Source: Methanobacteriota archaeon (GTDB lineage: Archaea > Thermoplasmatota > Thermoplasmata > UBA10834). Taken from it: a DNA stretch of 64,000 nt. The notes beneath the pieces are model-generated. The model did not search any database. It saw nothing but the letters and a program-made list of their open reading frames with translations, and had not been told where the DNA came from. Each line of letters opens with the position of its first letter. Position 1 is the stretch's first letter. Where the stretch lies: contig DYTN01000007.1 in the NCBI GenBank assembly GCA_020725925.1, positions 1 to 64,000 of the forward strand, given 5' to 3'. Both the position numbers and the translations under genes were made by a program. Of this stretch, positions 3,255 to 5,174 are shown in pieces.

Positions 3255-4322
3255 CTACGCGCCAAGCACTCGCCTGCATATGTCCAGCTGCTTCGCGACC
3301 TGGCCGTGCAGGTCGTCCGCACCGAACCTCATCTTCACATGCTCCCTGCCGTAGTCCGAGCTCCCCTTCCCCGCCCACTCGCCGAGGACAAGCAGCACGT
3401 CGCCGTCCAGGGATATCACGCCGAATGTGACTGCAAGATCGTATATCAGGTCGGAGACCTTCCAGGGGTCTATCCTCGCGTGCTCCGGTATGCCGAACGG
3501 GAGCTCGAGCTGCATGGTCATCAGCTCGCTCGTCCTCGCGTGGTTGACCATGTCCTCGTCCGCAGTCAGGAGGAAGACGTCGTAGTCCCCTCCCCTTGCC
3601 CAGTGCTTGTACGACTGTGCGATCTCGATGTCGTTCCTCTCCTTCCCCTTGACGGGAGTGCCCTTGATCCTCAGGGCGCGCAGCTCCGTGAGGAGGAAGT
3701 TCATCTCGTTGAAGGCCAACTTCGCTATCCTCTCTCGCCTCCCGCTGGCATTGGCGAACTCCCGCAGGAGCTCGGGGTGCGCCAGAGTCTCGCCGAGGGC
3801 CCTGATCTCGTCCCTCGAGTACTTGTGCGTTATCTTCGAGTCGATCTCCATCTGGACTATCTCGCTCAGGACGTACCTGAAGTCCTGCGCCTCCACCGCC
3901 CGGCCAGCCTCGTCCCGCAGAGGCAGATGCCTGGACAGGAACCTGTCGTAGAGTATGTTCGTGTCCAGGGCCACGAAGACCGGCCTCGGGCGCTTGTTCG
4001 GGTCACGGGCCTCCTCCCGCAGGTCCAGGAGCTTCCTAGTGATCTCGGCCTCGTTCTTGTAGCTCAGGAACCCGGACGATAGCATGCAGTTCCTCAGGTC
4101 GGTGTAGCTCGGGAGCTCGTCCGCGCTTGCGGACCTGTCGAGCGGCTTCCTGCTCGAGCGCGCCCAATCGAAGGCGTCGGACCTGACTATGTGCGTGAGC
4201 TCGGGTTTGTCGATGTCCACGGTGAACAGCTCAGTGTCAAAGAAGGGGTAGGAGACGTGCACATACCTCCTCTCGCCCCTGTAGATGGCATTGAGGAGTA
4301 TCTGGAGCTCCCGCCTGGACAT
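3255..4322 (-). CDS. PIN-domain ribonuclease-like protein
   Basis: FVALDTNILYDRF...VQMEID...DVFLLTADEDMVNHA acidic pattern of PIN folds; start set at MSRREL, since the upstream part of the ORF overlaps the next gene. Confidence 0.75.
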   Translation of the reverse strand: MSRRELQILLNAIYRGERRYVHVSYPFFDTELFTVDIDKPELTHIVRSDAFDWARSSRKPLDRSASADELPSYTDLRNCMLSSGFLSYKNEAEITRKLLDLREEARDPNKRPRPVFVALDTNILYDRFLSRHLPLRDEAGRAVEAQDFRYVLSEIVQMEIDSKITHKYSRDEIRALGETLAHPELLREFANASGRRERIAKLAFNEMNFLLTELRALRIKGTPVKGKERNDIEIAQSYKHWARGGDYDVFLLTADEDMVNHARTSELMTMQLELPFGIPEHARIDPWKVSDLIYDLAVTFGVISLDGDVLLVLGEWAGKGSSDYGREHVKMRFGADDLHGQVAKQLDICRRVLGA

Positions 4323-4333
4323 CACGAGCTCCT

Positions 4334-4813
4334 TCACTTCCACACCTCCTCCTTGAGGTCGACGAAGTGCTGCAGGTGGAAGGGAATCATGGGGTACGGG
4401 TTGTTCGACTTGCGCATGTCCTCGAGGTAGAGGTAGTAGACGTGGTCGACCTGCTTCTGCCAGGCGGACAGGAGGGCCGAGGATATGATCGCCTTTCTCC
4501 CGGGCGTTATGTCTATCGCAACCTCGTTCCCGCCGCCCCTCTCCTGCTCCATGACGCTCGTGATCTTCTTCCCAGACGAGGTGAAGTCCCCCTCGTCTAT
4601 AGCTATCAGGACAGGCTCGACGGCCCTGCCGTAGGATTCTGTCAGGAGTCTGATCCACCGGGCCAGTTCGCCAGCCTCCCTCTCCCTTCCCCGCGTGACG
4701 AAGAGGTAGACCCTGTCGGGCACGAAGCCCTTGCAGCAGATGGCCGCCCAGAGGCTGTTCAGCACTGGCCACCTGCTGATCCCCGTCATTGTGATGTAGA
4801 CTCTCTCGACCAT
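4334..4813 (-). CDS. CARF-like (CRISPR-associated Rossmann fold) domain protein, stand-alone
   Basis: 159 aa; MVERVYITMTG...FVPDRVYLFVTRG...AIDITPGRKAIISSALLSAWQKQVDHVYYLYLED resembles the CARF strand plus [ST]PGRK/TGGTK motif. Confidence 0.6.
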   Translation of the reverse strand: MVERVYITMTGISRWPVLNSLWAAICCKGFVPDRVYLFVTRGREREAGELARWIRLLTESYGRAVEPVLIAIDEGDFTSSGKKITSVMEQERGGGNEVAIDITPGRKAIISSALLSAWQKQVDHVYYLYLEDMRKSNNPYPMIPFHLQHFVDLKEEVWK

Positions 4814-4892: not shown

Positions 4893-5174
4893 GTGTCATT
4901 GCCCATGGCCGACGATTCGCCGCCTGAGCGGCAGATTGGCGATATTTGGACGGTGTCTTTCATATACCTCCATGCAATTCCTTGTCACGGGGGTGTAAGC
5001 CTGAGGAAGATTTGGATAGTCGCAGCTGGAGTGTTAGCCCTTGGAGTGACAGCTGCGCTGGCAGTCTTGGGTGTAGCACCAGACGGAGGTCACGCGTGGT
5101 TCAGCATTCAGGCCGGCCTGAAGTCCGCTGTATCGAGCGTTGCGACCCCGACTGGTGGGCACGCTTGGTTCTGA
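4893..5174 (+). CDS. Small secreted-like peptide with duplicated GGHAWF motif (start codon uncertain; core about 5001-5174)
   Basis: RKIWIVAAGVLALGVTAALAVLGVAPDGGHAWFSIQAGLKSAVSSVATPTGGHAWF*; signal-like hydrophobic stretch; the two motif copies use different codons. Confidence 0.45.
   Translation: MSLPMADDSPPERQIGDIWTVSFIYLHAIPCHGGVSLRKIWIVAAGVLALGVTAALAVLGVAPDGGHAWFSIQAGLKSAVSSVATPTGGHAWF

Follow-up and report, generated by a model that had tools for sequence, protein, structure and literature searches.

A two-gene, mostly Cas10-free form of the CARF-PIN effector in Thermoplasmatota archaea

Introduction

In the current understanding, effectors with a CARF domain act as the output arm of type III CRISPR systems. 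CARF genes unlinked to CRISPR-Cas were already noted in 2014 (PMC4012209), and the gene pair described here, from an archaeon of the Thermoplasmatota, can be compared with several described systems. The closest is SiRe_0806 of Sulfolobus islandicus (PDB 9jxw, apo; 9jxx, with cA4), for which no publication was found in the literature searched. It shares with the pair the combination of CARF and PIN and the sequence DITPGRK, and is the top structural match of both proteins, but it is a single polypeptide of 429 aa, whereas the pair consists of two genes. The PADLOC collection holds the CARF_m1 family (PDLC01971-01973; CARF and CARF_PIN), the sequence profiles of which match both proteins; this family is apparently catalogued by sequence only, while its Cas10-free distribution and its two-gene operon in these archaea are established in this study.

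Other relatives resemble one half of the pair. The ring nuclease Crn1/Sso2081 is, like our CARF protein, a standalone protein of similar size with an identical motif II, GRK, but it carries a motif I, GTS, that is not seen in our protein, and our protein has a PIN nuclease as its partner. RtcR, the regulator of RNA repair, is likewise a CARF protein acting without CRISPR (PMC7790460); its CARF domain is divergent and belongs to a transcriptional activator that also carries NtrC-like AAA+ and HTH domains (PMC4012209), and it binds tRNA fragments (PMC7790460). The CARF-wHTH proteins of the Csa3 and HFX_2341 type are also CARF sensors, but are predicted transcription factors and not nucleases. 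VapBC modules combine a PIN toxin of about 130 aa with a small DNA-binding antitoxin, as against a PIN protein of 360 aa with a CARF partner in the present case.

Results

Organization of the gene pair

The window, that is the whole stretch of DNA analysed, covers bases 1-64000 of a contig of 80,782 bases (C36) in a draft archaeal assembly of 2.04 Mb with an estimated completeness of 92.9% (hereafter G000). As the original prediction had it, a frame of 159 aa lies directly upstream of the PIN gene on the same, minus, strand:

3255..4337, minus strand: predicted PIN-domain nuclease, 360 aa (PADLOC, AF2 model, PDB matches)
4334..4813, minus strand: standalone CARF protein of the CARF_m1 family, 159 aa (PADLOC, AF2 model, PDB and Foldseek matches)
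4334..4337, minus strand: GTGA start/stop overlap of 4 nt between the end of the CARF gene and the start of the PIN gene (ORF coordinates)

The CARF frame runs from 4813 to 4334 with its TGA stop at 4336-4334, and the PIN frame opens with a GTG at 4337 and ends at 3255. This overlap suggests translational coupling of the two genes, and overlapping or near-abutting CARF and PIN genes were found in the relatives too. The further proposal that CARF and PIN are separate proteins here, and not parts of one polypeptide as in the fused form of PADLOC, was borne out by two reading frames in the window and in all relatives inspected within the phylum.

Fold and ligand motif of the CARF protein

The 159-aa protein was matched by the PADLOC profile CARF_m1--CARF with E=3.1e-32, and by Pfam Csa3_N with E=0.0017, which is under the Pfam cut-off. 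A profile built from 26 relatives was compared with the PDB and matched Sso2081, a ring nuclease, with E=2.4e-6 and SiRe_0806, the CARF-PIN fusion, with E=2e-5. Structure prediction had been named in advance as a result on which the CARF assignment might fail, and a Rossmann-like CARF fold was obtained: the single-chain AF2 model (pLDDT 92.2, pTM 0.89) matched SiRe_0806 with cA4 best in the Foldseek comparison with the PDB, followed by Cam1, Csm6, Cad1, Csa3 and Sis0811. The predicted CARF-like sensor is therefore recovered by PADLOC, profile, AF2 and Foldseek alike, with CARF proteins as the top matches, and the PADLOC and PDB profile matches together with the modelled fold confirm the assignment well above the level of chance.

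The segment that had been likened to a CARF ligand-binding motif contains, after the fourth strand, a sequence of the D-x-T-x-G-x-K type characteristic of the superfamily, D101-I-T-P-G105-R106-K107, which is identical letter for letter in SiRe_0806. Among 26 relatives this motif II is well kept (D in 24, T in 25, R106 in 21 and K107 in 23). In the alignment with Sso2081 its GRK falls on Gly104-Arg105-Lys106, where the change of Arg105 to Ala abolished the binding of cA4 (PMC10018336). The GTS of motif I, important for cleavage in Sso2081 (PMC10018336), was not seen in the sequence of the window protein, which has T10-G-I-S13 in its place. Because this element of ring cleavage is absent from the sequence, the protein is predicted to be a binder of its ligand and not a ring nuclease.

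Domains and active site of the PIN protein

The 360-aa protein is composed of an N-terminal domain (residues 1 to about 115), a PIN core (about 120-280) and a C-terminal extension with an invariant W321-x-G-K324. It has the acidic cluster of PIN nucleases, with the predicted catalytic residues D125, E164, D236 and D260 invariant in 28/28 relatives. The PIN half of PADLOC CARF_m1--CARF_PIN matched it with E=5.4e-29, and Pfam PIN_12 with E=1.8e-5, under the Pfam cut-off. At E<=0.001 the single-chain model (pLDDT 93.0) matched five chains in the PDB, each of them from SiRe_0806; the overall superposition on that protein is loose, with a TM of about 0.4-0.5, which is expected if the domains differ in angle. 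Named relatives, whose PIN proteins are 66-81% identical to that of the window, are MAGs of Thermoplasmata/Euryarchaeota, for instance RBG_13_57_23, and 11 named Thermoplasmata loci were recovered.

Since both proteins best match the SiRe_0806 fusion together with the CARF and CARF_PIN profiles of CARF_m1, the pair is taken to be a split form of this known fused effector. PIN is the commonest toxin fold, and the two genes overlap with the small one first, so that a toxin-antitoxin-like pair has to be weighed. In it PIN would be a constitutively active toxin, while the CARF protein would either restrain it until released by a ligand or destroy its activating ring; such a pair is also favoured by the best PDB sequence matches, which include the standalone CARF ring nuclease Sso2081. 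The PIN protein is, however, far above the size of VapC, the cleavage motif of Sso2081 was not seen in the sequence, and a single fused CARF-PIN protein is matched by both halves, which favours a sensor with its effector. A toxin-antitoxin-like arrangement is accordingly judged to be very unlikely.

Conservation of the pair

Among 100 relatives searched, the CARF query was found in 33 and the PIN query in 34. The CARF gene lies directly upstream of the PIN gene on the same strand at 57 of the 60 PIN loci (two locus sets, with some genomes in both), the three exceptions being two contig ends and one truncated PIN gene. The pair recurs in no fewer than 11 families of the class and also elsewhere in the phylum, so that the association of the two genes, the loss of which had been named as a possible refutation, is found to be conserved. 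Pairwise identities of CARF and of PIN across 23 genomes are correlated (Mantel r=0.86, 0/2000 permutations), but the value falls to 0.53 among distant pairs alone, and shared ancestry explains part of the correlation. With conserved adjacency and co-evolution of its two members, CARF-PIN is a real, conserved two-gene unit. Its spread within families is patchy, with none in the seven members searched of genus g3, as for an accessory function.

CRISPR components and known messenger makers

The original prediction had noted neither a cas gene nor an array in the window and had advised looking for type III CRISPR in the rest of the genome. The repeats detected in the 64 kb are all low-complexity coding repeats, with no CRISPR-like array among them, and family models gave no match for Cas1, the Cas10 palm, RAMP or Csx1-HEPN in the whole 2.04-Mb assembly. 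A survey of the phylum, covering 393 genomes, detected the PIN protein in 37 of them and the Cas10 palm in 12, with both in three only (G032, G255 and G302). The remaining 34 of the 37 carriers gave no Cas10 palm match, and these include G074, a single contig with 99% completeness, and G054, also 99% complete. In the three genomes with both, the pair and Cas10 are unlinked: some 400 kb separate them in G032, and in G302 and G255 they occupy different contigs. Of the 100 relatives, three have RAMPs, two of these three being carriers, and no association of Cas1 with CARF-PIN was observed (p=0.37). This distribution supports the proposed independence from CRISPR.

The same survey bears on the reading of the pair as an ordinary ancillary effector of type III systems, the Cas10 complex being missed in drafts or brought in from time to time on mobile type III loci. 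PIN is among the listed effectors activated by cyclic oligoadenylate (cOA) (PMC12669027), G000 is a draft, and the co-occurrence of Cas10 with the pair is slightly above expectation (odds ratio 3.4, Fisher p=0.09). With Cas10 neither linked to the pair nor co-resident in G000, the large majority of carriers free of it, including the single-contig genome, RAMPs so rare, and Cas10 unlinked wherever it co-occurs, the survey largely refutes this reading, which we regard as the least probable of those considered.

Known makers of cyclic nucleotides were searched for with family models, and since G000 is a draft of 92.9% completeness the following results are not proof of absence. No match to mCpol was found in G000; its sole match in the 100 relatives overlaps Cas10 of G088. 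The c-di-AMP cyclase DAC is absent from G000 and from all 20 members searched of its family and order, and is present in some other families. The SMODS model, the only CD-NTase model tried, gave one match in G000 (E=1.4e-6), which is the CCA-adding enzyme, and a CD-NTase as in CBASS was therefore found with this model neither near the pair nor in the genome.

As a separate observation, a carrier genome (G030, contig C5) encodes a 260-aa nucleotidyltransferase of SMODS type without the domains of CCA enzymes (L157, 866-1648), possibly a CD-NTase. All other SMODS matches in carriers have a frame length as in the CCA-adding enzyme, the identity having been checked for that of G000.

Neighbouring genes

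Tandem CARF-wHTH genes of the Csa3/HFX_2341-like type immediately precede the pair, in the same orientation, in G020, G043, G068 and G089, and a region related to the tandem lies upstream of the pair at L099 (G111). Tandems were also found at the following loci:

9314-10638 of L137 (G000, contig C18): CARF-wHTH tandem beside a gene for a HAD-type hydrolase
6962-8370 of L111: CARF-wHTH tandem
8537-9813 of L144: CARF-wHTH tandem

A HAD-type hydrolase gene divergent from the tandem was found at nine loci in all. The tandem and CARF-PIN occur together in 17/25 genomes (p=7e-5 by genome), but the association is not claimed as established because p=0.24 when counted by family. Cas10 is missing from all 25 genomes with the tandem. 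It is plausible that the tandem and CARF-PIN share a signal. As a tentative and rather doubtful extension, the Thermoplasmatota may possess a CRISPR-free network of CARF signalling, in which a cyclase other than Cas10, mCpol or DAC would produce a cyclic oligonucleotide acting on both the CARF-wHTH tandem, which lies beside the gene of a HAD-type hydrolase, and the split CARF-PIN.

Two further kinds of neighbour were recorded. Genes for QueE-like radical-SAM proteins and/or QueC, of the archaeosine pathway, adjoin CARF-PIN or lie within about 8 kb of it in families f14, f16 and f20, which may be chance. In family f14, an M24 peptidase gene follows the PIN gene on the same strand, overlapping or abutting it.

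10571-11200 of L147, 8254-8883 of L148, 14087-15432 of L150, 17119-18415 of L149: QueE-like / QueC loci
10372-11301 of L148, 8147-9079 of L147, and L083-L087: M24 peptidase gene by PIN, f14

A peptide frame beside the TPR gene

Between the CARF gene and a TPR protein gene (6622-5252, minus strand), there is a conserved unannotated reading frame of about 56-60 aa (4995-5174, plus strand), which is preceded by a CACGGGG element. Its product has a hydrophobic N-terminus and contains a hexapeptide twice; the two copies are identical within each of seven genomes and vary among them (GGHAWF, GGHAWH, GGHTWI in two genomes, GGHSWF, GAHAWY and GGHAWL). Divergence at third codon positions is roughly double that at first and second positions, and a clear ATG start is missing in several copies. 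The frame stands tail to tail with the TPR gene in the window and at L105 and L108. RRNPP systems are known from Firmicutes and the mobile elements of these bacteria (PMC10075063); the peptide frame and the TPR gene resemble a pheromone precursor beside its receptor, and might represent an RRNPP-like system of archaea.

Discussion

In our preferred reading, which we consider probable though far from assured, the pair is a split CARF-PIN effector, in which CARF binds a ligand resembling cyclic oligoadenylate and activates the PIN RNase in trans, the signal being supplied by something other than type III CRISPR. Sequence comparison and modelling give two predicted folds with intact predicted active and binding sites, both halves being homologous to one cA4-binding fusion. 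From these we infer that the pair is a signalling device with a cyclic oligonucleotide as its ligand. The CARF protein, as a dimer like known CARF domains, would bind a cyclic-oligoadenylate-like nucleotide through its GRK, and the ligand-bound form would switch on the separately encoded PIN RNase, which would cut RNA and thereby bring about a stop of growth, the blocking of a virus or the death of infected cells. The messenger would come from a source other than a type III CRISPR complex. The type of ligand, the activation in trans, RNA as the substrate, the role in defence and a signal maker of another kind than those sought would all belong to this proposed mechanism.

Since the CARF of RtcR binds tRNA ends and not cOA, the fold by itself does not settle the class of ligand, and an RNA end as for RtcR may be regarded as the main alternative. 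The CARF protein would then recognize, for example, tRNA fragments with a 2',3'-cyclic phosphate, and PIN would answer RNA damage. No messenger synthase would be needed, in keeping with the lack of a match to any known one in G000, and the nearness of the archaeosine genes to the pair in three families gives a weak hint of tRNA, although it may be chance. The ligand motif, in contrast, matches that of the cA4-binding SiRe_0806 and Sso2081 and not the divergent CARF of RtcR, and we consider an RNA-end ligand to be unlikely.

The novelty first attached to the pair has to be lowered, since CARF_m1 with and without fused PIN was already in PADLOC and the crystal structure of the fused homologue with bound cA4 is available. 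What is new is the split, mostly Cas10-free form of this catalogued CARF-PIN effector. In this form sensor and nuclease can be purified apart, which makes activation in trans directly testable. CARF-PIN stays intact in many genomes without detectable Cas10, and therefore either a messenger of like kind has another source in these archaea, or the CARF protein reads something else.
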